In this document: piece by piece, positions 12,122 through 19,309 of the stretch
Numbering within the stretch: the first letter of the stretch is position 1
How the letters are laid out: each line of letters starts with the position of its first letter
NCBI RefSeq assembly: GCF_014859555.1
Contig: NZ_JACUTY010000016.1
Location: 1 to 36,909, forward strand
Direction: 5' to 3'
Length of the DNA stretch: 36,909 bases
Source of the DNA: Thiomicrospira sp.
GTDB lineage: Bacteria > Pseudomonadota > Gammaproteobacteria > Thiomicrospirales > Thiomicrospiraceae
The notes under the pieces: model-generated
What the model was told of the DNA's origin: nothing
The model's database searches: none
Seen by the model: the letters and a program-made list of their open reading frames with translations, nothing else
Made by a program: the position numbers and the translations under genes

Positions 12122-14356
12122 TCATTGGCTCCAACACCAGAGTGCTTTTTTGAGTGCTTCAACATCAATCGGTTTACTTAAGTAGTCATTCATACCCGCT
12201 GCCATGACTTTTTCACGATCCCCAAACATCGCATTCGCCGTTAACGCGATAATAGGGGTGCAAGCCAAGCGTTGATTTCCGTGACCACGAATGCGCCGTG
12301 TGGCTTCTAGACCATCCATCTTAGGCATTTGCATATCCATTAGAATTAAATCGAACTTAGTGTCGGACTTATTTAGCTGCTCAAGTACTTCAACGCCATT
12401 TTCAGCCAGCGTAACTTGATGCTTAAGTTTGGCTAGAATGGCCTTTATTAATAGCTGGTTAGACGGATTATCTTCGGCCACCAAAATAGATAAAGCACGC
12501 TGGTTTTGGTAATTAATCCGTTCACCTTCAAGTTCAACTTCTTCTGGGGTGGCTGGCACACAAGGCACTTCAAACCAAAAACAGCTGCCAACACCTAAGC
12601 GACTACGTGCACCAATATCACCCTGCATCGCCTGAGCCAGTTTTTTACTAATCGATAAACCCAAGCCGGTTCCACCATATTTTCGACTGATTGAGGCGTC
12701 CGCCTGCGTAAAGGCATCAAATAAATGCGCTAGCTTTTCTTCAGCAATTCCGATACCTGTGTCTTTAACTTCAAAACGGGCCCGGTGACCAATACCCATC
12801 ACTTTAAGAGTAACCGAGCCTTGCTCGGTAAATTTAATGGCATTACCCAAAAGATTTAATAAAACCTGACGCAAACGTGCCTGATCACCTTTTACATAAG
12901 CCACCAGGCCTGGTGCTTTTTCTAGCTTTAGTTCAATCCCTTTGGCTTGGGCACTCGGCTTTAGCATTTCAATCACGTTATCGATCTGCTGGTTTAAATC
13001 AAAAGCATGACTTTCTAACTCGACTCGACCAGCATCCAGTTTGTTAAAATCTAGAATGTCATTCACCAAGTGCAGCAGGTGCTGACCTGAGCGTTGAATC
13101 ATTTCGGCTTGATTTTTTTGTTCTGTGCTTAAGGCTTGGTCTAACAATAAATTAGACATGCCGATCACCGCATTCAGCGGTGTACGAATTTCATGACTCA
13201 TTACCGATAAAAATTCAGACTTGGCATTGGCCGCTGATTCCGCCTCTTGGCGCGCCTGCTCTAACACCTGCTCCATTTCTTTTCGTTCAGTAATATCTAA
13301 AGCGAAGCCCAATATCCAGATTTCTGGAGGTTGATCTGGACGCTGGATATGAATCGGACCCCGGCCGGTTAATAACCAGCGTGTCTGCCCCATCAACGTC
13401 AACGGCTCTTCCGACACAATAAGTTCAGCACTTTGTTTCGCTTGGCGATCATCATCAACAAACTTACGCGCTAATTCGATTGGAAATACTTCAAAATCGG
13501 TTCGACCAATGGCTCGATTGCGCTCGACACCTGTTATCTGTTCAGTTTGTTTACTGTAAAAACGGAAACAGCCTTGCGCATCTTTTACATAAATACTAAT
13601 TGGCAGCGCATCCAAGATCTGTTCAATCAGAACCTCTCGCTGCCGAACCGTTTGCTCAAGACGTTTGGCATCAGACACATCACGAACCGAACCGACTAAA
13701 CGATAAGCTTGATTAGAATCAGCCTGCCAAATGGCTTGACCCGTCAACTGCATCCAGATATAACTGTTACTGGACGTTTTAAAACGAAACATCACATTAA
13801 ACGGCCAACGCGCCTCAAGGTGTGCAAATAATGCGTCGTCGATACGCACTAGGTCTTGTGGATGGACACGCGCCATAATTTCGGCTTTAGTCTGCCCCAG
13901 CTCAACGGGGGAAATATCACACATCTGATAAAACCGATCACTGTAACGAATTAAATCTTGCTTTAAATCCCAATCAAACAAACCCAGTCCCGCTGCATCA
14001 GACACAGTACGATAGATTTGATCCTCAGGGCCTTGTTGGTTGAAATTTTCGGTGTGCGCACCTGCCATGACAAACTGGATCAAAATTCCGTCCTGGTAAT
14101 GAACCAATGTAAATTGACAAGCCTCGACCAAGCCTTTTAAAGCGTAGCGAAAGCTTGTAACACTGGTGCGCTGCATAGCACTCAATAATTGCAGTTTAAG
14201 TTCTACATCCAGATTGAGATCATAATGACCCCACAGAGAGTGGGCGGTTTGATTCTGCCAATTTATACGCCATTGCGATTCGTCGTTGCATACAGCAAAA
14301 GCCACCGCTAAGGGGGCGTTTGCATAAATTTCATTTAAAGCCGAGTTGGCAGGCAT
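12122..14356 (-). CDS. PAS-containing hybrid sensor histidine kinase with receiver domain
   Basis: A 744-residue signalling protein without obvious membrane segments, so probably cytoplasmic. It has an N-terminal PAS-like region (1-105), a PAS/PAC pair (about 115-235, ending VGSVRDVSDAKRLE) and another PAS/PAC (about 240-360, ending FALDITERKEMEQ). A coiled segment and HisKA domain follow with SHEIRTPLN (phospho-acceptor H388). The HATPase domain has N505 (N box), DTGIGI (532-537) and GGTGLGL (561-567). The C-terminal receiver (about 622-742) has its phospho-acceptor D674 in LMDMQMPKMDG and K728. No Hpt domain or partner regulator is nearby, so the output is unknown. AAGGGAT precedes the ATG. 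Residues 482-485 (PGLV) are encoded by an iterated palindrome. Confidence 0.93.
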   Translation of the reverse strand: MPANSALNEIYANAPLAVAFAVCNDESQWRINWQNQTAHSLWGHYDLNLDVELKLQLLSAMQRTSVTSFRYALKGLVEACQFTLVHYQDGILIQFVMAGAHTENFNQQGPEDQIYRTVSDAAGLGLFDWDLKQDLIRYSDRFYQMCDISPVELGQTKAEIMARVHPQDLVRIDDALFAHLEARWPFNVMFRFKTSSNSYIWMQLTGQAIWQADSNQAYRLVGSVRDVSDAKRLEQTVRQREVLIEQILDALPISIYVKDAQGCFRFYSKQTEQITGVERNRAIGRTDFEVFPIELARKFVDDDRQAKQSAELIVSEEPLTLMGQTRWLLTGRGPIHIQRPDQPPEIWILGFALDITERKEMEQVLEQARQEAESAANAKSEFLSVMSHEIRTPLNAVIGMSNLLLDQALSTEQKNQAEMIQRSGQHLLHLVNDILDFNKLDAGRVELESHAFDLNQQIDNVIEMLKPSAQAKGIELKLEKAPGLVAYVKGDQARLRQVLLNLLGNAIKFTEQGSVTLKVMGIGHRARFEVKDTGIGIAEEKLAHLFDAFTQADASISRKYGGTGLGLSISKKLAQAMQGDIGARSRLGVGSCFWFEVPCVPATPEEVELEGERINYQNQRALSILVAEDNPSNQLLIKAILAKLKHQVTLAENGVEVLEQLNKSDTKFDLILMDMQMPKMDGLEATRRIRGHGNQRLACTPIIALTANAMFGDREKVMAAGMNDYLSKPIDVEALKKALWCWSQ
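12902..12915. repeat. Iterated palindrome copy 4 (14-bp dyad), in the sensor kinase gene
   Basis: The 12-bp core is at 12903-12914, with one more matched base pair on each side. On the coding (minus) strand it is read P-G-L-V, between the HisKA and HATPase domains. Confidence 0.9.
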
Positions 14357-15861: not shown

Positions 15862-16548
15862 TCAATGTTTCACATCTCGCCAGTATTCTCTTTTGAGAAG
15901 ATAGGTTAGCAGCAACAACACCAATAGGAATAAAATTACCTTCCAGCCAAGATCCCAACGCTCTACTTTATTAGGCTCGGCAATGTAATCTAAGAAGTTA
16001 ACCAAATCACGTGTAACCTGATCAAACTCTTCCGGTGTGGCGTGTTTCTGAATCCCTTCTAGCACATTTGGCATAGAGGTTCCTGTCAACACTTTATTGT
16101 TCCAAATAGCCGGCTCCCATTCCCCTTCATTTTCTAGGTAGTAGCCGCGTAAAAAAGTATAGATATAATCATTGCCTTTTAAACGCGCCATTAAAGAAAG
16201 GTCTGGCGCTTGAATACCGAACTTACTTTGAGACACACCGTCTTCCATAAACGTCATCATATAATCAACCGTTACACGCTGATTATAGGCCAGTTTTTCA
16301 ACGACTTCTTCATCCGTCCAGCCCAAGTCACGCGCGACACGGTTGTAACGCATATACTGCGCTGAATGACAAACCATACAATAATTCGCAAACAGAACCG
16401 CACCGCGCTGCAGGGATTCTTTATCCCGAATATCGTTGTTGGCTTTTTCAAACGTTATATTGTAAGACGGTGCCGCAAATACCATGCTAACGGGTAACAG
16501 CATCGCGGCCAATACTAAACTCAATCTGCTTAAAAATGATGTCATCAT
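15862..16548 (-). CDS. petC: Ubiquinol-cytochrome c reductase, cytochrome c1
   Basis: Cytochrome c1 carries electrons from the Rieske centre to soluble cytochrome c in the periplasm. The 228-residue protein has a signal peptide (cleavage near VFAA, about residue 26), a haem c site CMVCH (C57, C60 and H61), a likely distal Met ligand in GTSMPNVLEG, and a C-terminal membrane anchor (about 204-222) followed by KREYWRDVKH. Its first ATG shares a base with the cytochrome b stop (TAATG). A second ATG follows at once, and the AGAGAGGAC upstream serves either. It is the last gene of petABC, followed by a terminator. Confidence 0.95.
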   Translation of the reverse strand: MMTSFLSRLSLVLAAMLLPVSMVFAAPSYNITFEKANNDIRDKESLQRGAVLFANYCMVCHSAQYMRYNRVARDLGWTDEEVVEKLAYNQRVTVDYMMTFMEDGVSQSKFGIQAPDLSLMARLKGNDYIYTFLRGYYLENEGEWEPAIWNNKVLTGTSMPNVLEGIQKHATPEEFDQVTRDLVNFLDYIAEPNKVERWDLGWKVILFLLVLLLLTYLLKREYWRDVKH

Positions 16549-17786
16549 TAAGTTGTCCTCTCTGGTACAGGTTTGGTTTTTTCATGCGCCGAGGTATAGG
16601 GCAGCAAAATGAAGAAAGCAAAATACAAGATCGTAAATATTTGCGCGAGCTTAGTATGAAGCGGGGTAGATGGTAAAGCACCTAACACACCCAACACAAC
16701 AAAACTGATGGCCAACATGGTTAACAATAACTTGTATGAGTAACCACGATAGCGAATTGAACGCACCTTACAACGATCTAGCCAAGGCATAGCAAACAAC
16801 ACCGCAATCGAGGCACCCATTGCAAGCACACCTAAAAACTTATCTGGCACGGCACGCAAAATTGCATAAAACGGGGTGAAATACCAAACCGGTGCGATAT
16901 GGTCCGGCGTTTTTAATGGATCAGCCGGTTCAAAGTTTGGTGCTTCAATAAAGTGGCCGCCACCTTCAGGCATATAAAACACCACTATCGCAAACAGGAT
17001 TAAGAAGAAAACCGCACCAAATGAATCTTTCACCGTGTAGTAAGGATGGAAAGGAATCCCATCTAGTGGCAAACCTTGCGTGTCTTTATGCTTTTTAATC
17101 TCGACACCATCCGGGTTGTTCGAGCCTACTTTGTGTAACGCCACAATGTGCATAAAGACCAACAGAACCAACACCAAAGGCATCGCAATCACGTGCAAGG
17201 CAAAAAAGCGGTTCAGGGTCGCGTCAGAAATAATGTAGTCCCCCCTTATCCACAACGCCAAGTCTGGACCAATCAACGGAATGGCACTAAACAAGGAAAT
17301 AATAACCTGTGCACCCCAATAAGACATTTGACCCCATGGCAACATATAACCCATAAAAGCTTCGGCCATTAATACCACAAAGATCAACATGCCGATCAAC
17401 CACACTAACTCTCGTGGCTTCTTGTAAGAGCCGTAGAGTAATGCGCGTGTCATATGTAAATAAATGACTAGAAAGAAGGCCGATGCCCCCGTCGTATGCA
17501 TATAACGGATCAGCCAACCCCATTCAACATCTCGCATAATGTATTCAATAGAGTGAAAAGCTTCATCGGCTGATGGTTTGTAGCTCATGGTTAGCCAAAT
17601 ACCGGTGATAAACTGAATCACCATGACCAGTAACGCAAACGAGCCAAAGAAGTACCAAAAGTTGAAGTTTTTCGGTGCATAGTATTGGGCAACGTGTTCG
17701 TTCCAAGTGCTGATCAACGGATAACGGTCATCTAACCACTTCAACATGCCGCCGGGTGGCGTTTGATTTGTATTTTTGTCAGACAT
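16548..17786 (-). CDS. petB: Ubiquinol-cytochrome c reductase, cytochrome b
   Basis: This is the membrane core of the bc1 complex, holding both haems b and the Qo and Qi quinol sites. The protein is 412 residues and full length. Haem ligands appear as H97 and H111 in helix B and H198 and H213 in helix D. The helix D spacing is 15 residues, against 14 in the alphaproteobacterial and mitochondrial proteins. The Qo-site motif is PVWY (299-302) in place of the classical PEWY, so the glutamate thought to accept a quinol proton is absent. This variant is known from other proteobacteria. The gene overlaps both petA (one base, TAATG) and petC (one base), so the three are translationally coupled. Confidence 0.96.
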   Translation of the reverse strand: MSDKNTNQTPPGGMLKWLDDRYPLISTWNEHVAQYYAPKNFNFWYFFGSFALLVMVIQFITGIWLTMSYKPSADEAFHSIEYIMRDVEWGWLIRYMHTTGASAFFLVIYLHMTRALLYGSYKKPRELVWLIGMLIFVVLMAEAFMGYMLPWGQMSYWGAQVIISLFSAIPLIGPDLALWIRGDYIISDATLNRFFALHVIAMPLVLVLLVFMHIVALHKVGSNNPDGVEIKKHKDTQGLPLDGIPFHPYYTVKDSFGAVFFLILFAIVVFYMPEGGGHFIEAPNFEPADPLKTPDHIAPVWYFTPFYAILRAVPDKFLGVLAMGASIAVLFAMPWLDRCKVRSIRYRGYSYKLLLTMLAISFVVLGVLGALPSTPLHTKLAQIFTILYFAFFILLPYTSAHEKTKPVPERTT

Positions 17787-18406
17787 TAAGCTTGCCCTCC
17801 TGATTCCGCATCTTCACCCACACGGATGTGTGTTTCTGTTAAATACATATAAGGTGGAATTTCCAAGTTAGTCGGCGCTGGCACTGAGCGAAACACTCGA
17901 CCGGCTAAATCAAAACTCGAACCATGACAAGGACAGAAAAATCCGCCACGCCAGCCCGCGGCCATATCCGCAGACCCTACCGCCGGACGATATAATGGCG
18001 CACAACCCAAGTGTGTACAAATCCCGACCACCACTAGATATTCTGGCTTGATCGCACGTGAAGGGTTTTGGCAGTATTCTGGTTGAATTGACGCATTCGA
18101 ATCTGGATCTCGAAGTTTATCGTCTAGCGTGGCTAAACGCTCCAGCATTTCAGCTGTACGACGTACAATCCATACGGGCTTACCACGCCAACTTAACGTC
18201 ATCATCTGACCAGGTTGCAATCCGCTAATGTCAGCATCCACCGGTGCGCCTGCCGCTTTTGCCTTTTCACTGGGTTGCCAAGAACCCAAAAAAGGCACTG
18301 CGACAAATGCCGCGCCAACCGCTCCCACAACGCCTGTTGCCCCGGCCAATACTTGACGGCGTTTTATATTTACCGTTTCTATCGTTTTCGTTTCAGACAT
18401 AGTCAT
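17786..18406 (-). CDS. petA: Ubiquinol-cytochrome c reductase, Rieske iron-sulfur subunit
   Basis: The Rieske protein takes the first electron from quinol. From the ATG at 18406 the product has 206 residues. A twin-arginine signal-anchor (KRRQVLAGATGVVGA) spans about residues 15-40 and keeps the folded 2Fe-2S protein attached to the membrane. The cluster boxes CTHLGC and CPCHGS are both complete, giving two Cys and two His ligands and the disulfide pair. GAGG stands five bases before this ATG; a second ATG six bases on and a TTG at 18424 are alternatives. It is the first gene of petABC. The upstream region carries a TAGAAT box and two 15-bp direct repeats. Confidence 0.95.
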   Translation of the reverse strand: MTMSETKTIETVNIKRRQVLAGATGVVGAVGAAFVAVPFLGSWQPSEKAKAAGAPVDADISGLQPGQMMTLSWRGKPVWIVRRTAEMLERLATLDDKLRDPDSNASIQPEYCQNPSRAIKPEYLVVVGICTHLGCAPLYRPAVGSADMAAGWRGGFFCPCHGSSFDLAGRVFRSVPAPTNLEIPPYMYLTETHIRVGEDAESGGQA

Positions 18407-18437
18407 GACTTCCTCATGGCTCAAAAAATTGGGCTCT

Positions 18438-18443
18438 ATTCTA
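18438..18443 (-). promoter_or_regulatory. Candidate -10 of the petABC promoter
   Basis: TAGAAT on the minus strand (18443-18438), about 32 bases before the petA start. No TTGACA-like box stands 16-18 bases upstream. Instead the proximal 15-bp direct repeat covers that place, which suggests activator-dependent transcription. Confidence 0.45.
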
Positions 18444-18459
18444 CAGAACCACCAAGTGA

Positions 18460-18496
18460 ACCGGTATAAATAAATGTCTATACCGGTATAAATAAA
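18460..18496. repeat. Two 15-bp direct repeats (ACCGGTATAAATAAA) at the petABC promoter
   Basis: Identical 15-bp units occur at 18460-18474 and 18482-18496, so the period is 22 bases, about two helical turns. The distal unit begins inside a perfect 12-bp palindrome TATACCGGTATA (18479-18490). The proximal unit covers the expected -35 position of petA. The layout is that of paired operator sites for a dimeric or cooperative regulator. The repeats are certain; the regulator is unknown. Confidence 0.65.
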
Positions 18497-18568
18497 ATTT
18501 ATTGCATTTGCGCATTTTAACCCGAGATTTAGCTTGAATACTCAGGGTTTTCACCCAGGCCAATCCGG

Positions 18569-19309
18569 TTAAACAGGATTGGCACAATCCACAAATCGGC
18601 ACTCAATACCGAACTGGTTTTGAATATATTCTGCAAGCGATTTCACCCCCCAGGTCTCGGTCGCATGGTGACCGGCTGCCAAATAGTGAATACCCGACTC
18701 TTTGGCAACATGGGTGGTCTGCTCAGATACTTCACCACTAATGTAGACGTCTGCCTGCCAATCCAACGCTTGTTGAATATAACCTTGTGCACCGCCGCTG
18801 CACCAGGCGATGGTCTGAACCAACTCTGGCCCACCAGGCAAATGCAATGGTTCGCGACCTAAACTCTCGGCCACCCTGCGCTTAAACTGATCCATTGAGA
18901 TAGGTTTCGCTAAACGCCCCAAACGCACCAGGCCTGGTACCGGTGTCATATCGTCTAACTGCCAAAGTTTACCAAGCTGAGCATTATTGCCATATTTGGC
19001 GTGGCCATCTAACGGCAAATGGTAAGCCAATAAGTTGATGTTATTTTGTATCAGTTTCTTAATACGTTGGTATTTCATGCCGGTAATGGTTTGAGCTTCA
19101 CTTTTCCAGAAATAACCGTGATGAACCAAAATCGTGTCCGCTTGGCATTCAATCGCTGCATCAATCAACGCCTGGTTGGCTGTCACGCCTAACACCATTC
19201 GTTTAATCTGCTCAGCCCCTTCAACTTGCAAACCATTGGGCGCGTAGTCTTGATACTGATCAACCTCTAACAACTGATGTAAATGCGCGACTAATTCATC
19301 TCTTAGCAT
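18569..19309 (-). CDS. Nif3-like dinuclear metal-centre protein (YbgI family)
   Basis: A 246-residue member of the conserved Nif3/YbgI/DUF34 family, hexameric rings with a two-metal site and no agreed function. Metal-binding signatures are VHHGYFWK (about 62-69), YHLPLDGH (about 95-102) and a C-terminal AAGHHATE with a following glutamate. It is the last gene of the same-strand run and begins nine bases after hisC. In Pseudomonas the same family member lies near hisC but with algW between; algW is absent here. A short inverted repeat (CCAATCC at 18560-18566 with GGATTGG at 18576-18582) covers its stop codon. PGLV in the middle is encoded by an iterated palindrome. Confidence 0.88.
   Translation of the reverse strand: MLRDELVAHLHQLLEVDQYQDYAPNGLQVEGAEQIKRMVLGVTANQALIDAAIECQADTILVHHGYFWKSEAQTITGMKYQRIKKLIQNNINLLAYHLPLDGHAKYGNNAQLGKLWQLDDMTPVPGLVRLGRLAKPISMDQFKRRVAESLGREPLHLPGGPELVQTIAWCSGGAQGYIQQALDWQADVYISGEVSEQTTHVAKESGIHYLAAGHHATETWGVKSLAEYIQNQFGIECRFVDCANPV
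18927..18938. repeat. Iterated palindrome copy 5 (ACCAGGCCTGGT), in the Nif3-like gene
   Basis: A perfect 12-bp copy, read P-G-L-V on the coding (minus) strand. Confidence 0.9.

Follow-up and report, generated by a model that had tools for sequence, protein, structure and literature searches.

The window analysed here, a stretch of 36,909 nucleotides from Thiomicrospira sp., carries on its minus strand the three genes of the cytochrome bc1 complex, all identified by Pfam: petA (17786..18406), which codes for the Rieske iron-sulphur protein and may start at either of two ATG codons (18404-18406 or 18398-18400), petB (cytochrome b, 16548..17786) and petC (cytochrome c1, 15862..16548). Upstream of petABC and in the same direction lies a DUF34/NIF3 gene (18569-19309, minus strand), while the second gene downstream of petC (12122-14356, minus strand) encodes a histidine kinase of the hybrid type, in which PAS domains are combined with a receiver domain. 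The start of petA is covered by a sequence, CCATGAGGAAGTCATGACTATG (18398-18419, minus strand), that is identical in all nine genomes of the genus. This sequence may contain a four-codon leader ORF (ATG AGG AAG TCA TGA), the stop codon of which shares bases with the first of the two petA start codons; alternatively, it may represent a ribosome site alone. The petA gene itself was found in all nine genomes of the genus (g1) and in 61 of the 62 genomes of the family, which cover seven genera.

The predicted petABC promoter is of the sigma-70 type. Its -10 hexamer, TAGAAT (18438..18443, minus strand), was recognised as such by the initial annotation, and this assignment agrees with the finding that the surrounding sequence, GTAGAATAG, is identical in nine of nine genus genomes. 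Throughout the text, positions are numbered from a start assumed to lie 7 bp past the -10, the window coordinate being equal to 18431 minus the (negative) position. A -10 of the form TARAAT could be anchored in 52 of the 61 petA promoters of the family; outside the anchored set are those of G011, G019, G020, G046, G047, G048, G052, G053 and G054. The -35 region of the 52 anchored promoters was scored as the best match to TTGACA at spacers of 15-19, which gave 12 promoters with 4 of 6 bases, 35 with 3 and 5 with 2. Over the family, these scores spread like those of shuffled sequence, where a match of at least 4 is reached in 24% of cases. Within the genus, however, six of the nine petA promoters match the -35 at 4 of 6, which speaks against the -35 having been lost altogether in the genus and lowers our confidence in the class II reading set out below. 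Some members of the genus, though not the window species, may have retained a weak -35.

Between the DUF34/NIF3 gene and petA, two exact copies of the 15-mer ACCGGTATAAATAAA are present on the plus strand, which in the sense of the promoter (petA being on the minus strand) read TTTATTTATACCGGT. The near unit (18460..18474) spans -43..-29 and the far unit (18482..18496) spans -65..-51, so that the two are 22 bp apart from start to start, with a gap of 7 bp. Both the pairing of the units and the location of the nearer one over the expected -35 had been pointed out in the initial annotation and were recovered here; the best -35 match of this promoter is 3 of 6. Nowhere else in the window does a 15-mer recur exactly within 40 bp, and such a pair arose in none of 300 windows shuffled by 60-bp blocks. 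In 20 control stretches of 20 kb taken from related genomes, close 15-mer pairs, counted by the same criterion, were absent from 17 and numbered 14, 9 and 5 in the remaining three, L233, L234 and L236, respectively. Since 3 of the 20 controls hold several pairs, close 15-mer repeats do occur in the real DNA of this family.

Additional copies of the unit, for which a genome-wide search had been suggested, were not detected: the whole genome (2.1 Mb in 146 contigs) has no further exact or one-mismatch copy, and at two mismatches, where seven places in the genome were matched, a reversed control pattern gave 15 hits versus nine for the unit. Of the 61 family genomes with petA, the other 60 likewise lack the exact unit in the petA upstream region; for these two reasons, the exact repeat was rejected as an operator. 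Within the relatives examined, sequence comparison indicates that the repeat is specific to the window species. The 12-bp palindrome TATACCGGTATA (18479..18490, centred at -53.5), which had been assigned to the far unit, is indeed present, but it begins 3 bp outside that unit. It is not conserved, being found upstream of petA in the window genome alone and in none of the other 60 of 61 genomes, and as the window contains 26 perfect 12-bp palindromes, TATACCGGTATA by itself means little.

The upstream DNA of the 61 petA genes was then compared as a whole, with G053 covered by a locus pattern search alone and G054 represented by 163 bases. A conservation profile of 31 representatives of the seven genera, anchored on the -10 and built from related, hence non-independent, sequences, has its high values over -71..-57 and -51..-33 and its low ones over -56..-52 and -27..-20. 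The centres of the two blocks are ∼22 bp apart, and their spacing to the -10 is almost invariant. Of the class II layout with a second upstream site that had been proposed from the window, the arrangement as such is supported by these two blocks, whereas the 15-bp units and the palindrome as binding sites are not, as they are absent from the petA upstream regions of the other 60 genomes; in other words, the upstream regions of the relatives lack the exact repeats and conserve the layout.

The proximal conserved block (-51..-33; 18464..18482, minus strand), a proposed class II activator site, reads TATAGACATTTATTTATAC in the window, GGTATAAACATTTATATATACC in the nearest relative, the petA of which is 94% identical, and TATAAAGATTTATATATAC in two other members of the genus, with close variants in the remaining ones. 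Its sequence changes between genera, as exemplified by CATAAATAGATATTTATG in g3, TATAAGTAGATACTGATTTAAG in g6, GGGATAAAAATTTGTAATCCC in g2 and CCTCATAAAGGAATACTTATGAGG in one genome of g5, while its spacing to the -10, as judged by eye, is constant to ∼1 base. No clear proximal block was seen by eye in two other g5 genomes, G025 and G026. Among the promoters outside the anchored set, G020 displays a similar block ahead of a TATGAT hexamer and G019 an alike sequence (both by eye, neither counted). The distal conserved block (-71..-57; 18488..18502, minus strand), ATAAATTTTATTTAT in the window, is A/T-rich and represents a proposed alpha-CTD (UP-like) site or a second activator site; it consists of A/T throughout in the window species and in the genus consensus, and has at least one G or C in the other genus members. 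Outside the family, where the best 80 of 588 loci yielded 79 usable upstream regions, the element scores high in L010 only, the upstream region of which is nearly that of G045 (genus g6). The 15-bp units straddle the conserved blocks in a different register and coincide with neither of them. To judge from these comparisons, the exact repeats overlie a putative control site that is older and conserved. A caution is in order here, as an exact repeat of a single genome may be misleading: what is conserved sat beneath it, in another register.

The proximal block shows a tendency towards palindromic symmetry around -42, which is significant only if the position is fixed beforehand. In the window, an imperfect palindrome of the form GGTATA-N10-TATACC (18463..18484, minus strand) is centred at -42.5, and it is also found in the nearest relative, G005. 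When averaged over the 31 representatives, the pair score is highest at -42.5, where its value of 5.10 is below the 95% point of the shuffles (5.13). The centres of the best palindromes that fall in -44..-40 add up to a weight of 6.58 of 31, compared with a shuffle mean of 1.38, and none of 200 shuffles was as high; with the position left free, the same statistic is reached by 109 of 200 shuffles. Because the class II position had been proposed beforehand, in the initial annotation, the fixed-position figure is given some weight, but no more. Direct repeats of 11 bp, as in sites of the OmpR/PhoB type, were tried and rejected (z of -2.0 at lag 11 and 0.8 at lag 22 over the 31 representatives), lag 22 being raised just locally, within the genus.

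A search for other targets of the element was also undertaken. At three mismatches or fewer, the genus element matched petA in eight of nine genomes, along with seven other places (control 5), and the g6 element had 19 matches, which came from 19 of the 32 genomes and were without exception at petA (control 0). A pattern based on g3 matched 19 places in 15 genomes, five of them at petA, with 18 for the control. Away from petA, the element has roughly as many close matches as the controls do, and at this stringency no second target stood out as convincing. With looser patterns, the places other than petA slightly exceed the control: a composite pattern returned 32 places in the nine genus genomes, namely the nine petA promoters and 23 others (control 16), and a looser pattern returned 68 places in 28 genomes of g3, g6 and g7, including 19 at petA and 49 others (control 39). 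Nine of the 23 composite places were inspected, and the genes beside them include ccoG, hemA and one that we take to be glyA. When recurrence was assessed by position or matching sequence, the ccoG site was seen in three genomes, the glyA-side site in three and the hemA site in two. Inspection of 20 of the 49 places in g3, g6 and g7 revealed no coherent set of genes.

The promoters of the cbb3 oxidase genes were compared with that of petA in more than one way. The upstream promoter of ccoN contains GTCATAAA in nine of nine genus genomes and, by eye, the ccoN promoters and (in many genomes) those of ccoG have a similar block ∼37-40 bases ahead of a -10-like hexamer. A matrix made from petA only placed 14 of 17 ccoN and 10 of 20 ccoG upstream regions above 95% of 139 control upstream regions (the ccoN start was not found in 3 of 20 loci), with several of these best matches falling, by eye, away from the block in question. 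For ccoN of the genus, eight of nine exceeded 95% of the controls, all of them at the GTCATAAA block. When each region was compared with shuffles of itself, 9 of 17 ccoN and 8 of 20 ccoG regions had no more than 2 of 40 shuffles as high; the corresponding counts for the window genome are 1 of 40 for ccoN and 20 of 40 for ccoG. The petA and ccoG matrices, the latter from 25 of 30 ccoG promoters, correlate at 0.42 in register +1 (46 of 2000 permutations as high), at 0.41 in register -2 and at 0.29 in register 0. The resemblance of the petA promoter to those of ccoN and ccoG is weak to moderate and suggestive, and it is possible that bc1 and cbb3 are under a shared regulator.

Two further features of the cbb3 region were recorded. 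Upstream of ccoN (L204-L223, 6 kb upstream of ccoG) there are two promoter-like stretches, the upstream one being that with GTCATAAA in the genus and the downstream one carrying an FNR-like box that is conserved, TTGAT-N4-ATTAA (12 of 17 regions reach 9 of 10 matches). The gap between ccoP and ccoG (L174-L203) harbours, in many genomes, a terminator-like hairpin (GGCCTA...TAGGCC) directly upstream of the ccoG promoter, the 3' arm of which is near the place of the distal block.

The best reading of the petABC promoter, and one on which our judgement is evenly balanced, is that a class II activator site, accompanied by an upstream block, replaces the -35. With its centre near -42, the proximal block would substitute for the -35 and be occupied by a dimeric activator in contact with RNA polymerase, which amounts to class II activation. 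The distal A/T-rich block, two helical turns further up, could provide a docking place for either the alpha C-terminal domains or another dimer of this activator. Such a putative activator would probably turn on the bc1 respiration genes. The 15-bp repeat would be a recent accident, a few substitutions having made two already similar blocks read alike. A stronger version, namely a dedicated activator for which the petABC promoter is the sole strong target in each genome, kept in most members of seven Hydrogenovibrio-related genera while its site drifts by genus with hardly any change in its spacing to the -10, is considered unlikely.

In sigma-70 promoters with UP elements, upstream A/T-rich DNA is read by the alpha-CTD, and both blocks described here are A/T-rich. 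The promoter might thus be activator-free, with the alpha C-terminal domains reading the two blocks to offset a weak -35 and petABC being constitutive. Close matches elsewhere are no commoner than those of the control, as would be expected without a specific regulator, yet G and C are conserved at fixed proximal places within genera (G at -45 and C at -33 in g1, G at -30 in g6), and 23 specified bases are retained, with three mismatches or fewer, in 19 of 32 g6 genomes. Moreover, the proximal block, at -51..-33, lies lower than the usual UP element, which spans -59..-38. We regard a constitutive promoter of this kind as unlikely. A repressor operator overlapping the -35 region would suit a palindrome at this place equally well; nevertheless, the window species has no good -35 to block (3 of 6), and the nearly constant distance to the -10, together with a second block upstream, makes repression very unlikely.

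With regard to candidate regulators, the genome was profiled for PF13545, PF00486 and the LysR HTH. Promoters of the LysR type have a recognition site near -65 (T-N11-A) and an activation site. In the genus (g1), T at -70 and A at -58 are invariant in nine of nine genomes and give a T-N11-A centred at -64 within ATAAATTTTATTTAT, so that a LysR-type activator might use this as its recognition site and have its activation site near -42. Six LysR HTH matches above the cut-off are available in the genome, but there is none among the eight window proteins scanned, and the distal dyad peaks at -66 in genus g6, which leaves this explanation decidedly improbable. The sole PF13545 match above the Pfam cut-off (a second one is below) is FNR, the oxygen sensor, by NCBIfam (244.4 bits versus a cut-off of 228), and FNR proteins activate bc1 genes elsewhere, according to excerpts of one report (PMC5934665). 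However, most petA promoters lack the FNR box TTGAT-N4-ATCAA: of the 52, 49 have 6-7 of 10 matches (24 with 6 and 25 with 7), two have 8 and one has 9, which is like shuffled sequence, whereas the ccoN upstream regions, by contrast, reach 9 of 10 in 12 of 17. For this reason, FNR acting on petABC through a degenerate box is very unlikely. ArcA was rejected as a candidate, given that none of the four PF00486 matches in the genome reaches the ArcA cut-off; two of them, PhoB and a regulator of the heavy-metal type, are above their cut-offs, and the other two, nearest to BaeR and to a sortase-system regulator, are below.

Returning to the class II reading, the two blocks offer a defined, testable control site for a central respiratory complex in the Hydrogenovibrio-related family. 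A search of titles and abstracts of open-licence papers found no literature on this petABC promoter. In a Shewanella oxyR mutant, the promoter activity of the pet operon was without significant change, according to the part of the report consulted (PMC5307378). With LysR-type promoters, the region described here shares blocks near -64 and -42 and, in the distal block of this genus, the T-N11-A; it differs from them in that the distal dyad of g6 is located elsewhere and no adjacent regulator gene is present among the scanned proteins. Conserved A/T-rich upstream DNA is a likeness to sigma-70 promoters with UP elements, while the positions of the blocks and the conserved G/C set it apart from a plain UP element. 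In Herbaspirillum seropedicae, according to excerpts of a published study (PMC5934665), Fnr1 and Fnr3 jointly activate petABC, and the fnr1 promoter has a site with its centre at -42 that is termed class II. Unlike the Herbaspirillum FNR promoters, most petA promoters of this family are without an FNR box, and their A/T-rich proximal block varies by genus, with a binding protein that is putative. Like the class II FNR promoters of that species, as far as the excerpts describe them, they combine a proposed activator site near -42 that overlaps the -35 with bc1 genes placed under a presumed activator, and the layout is that of an old, conserved promoter of a known, ordinary kind.
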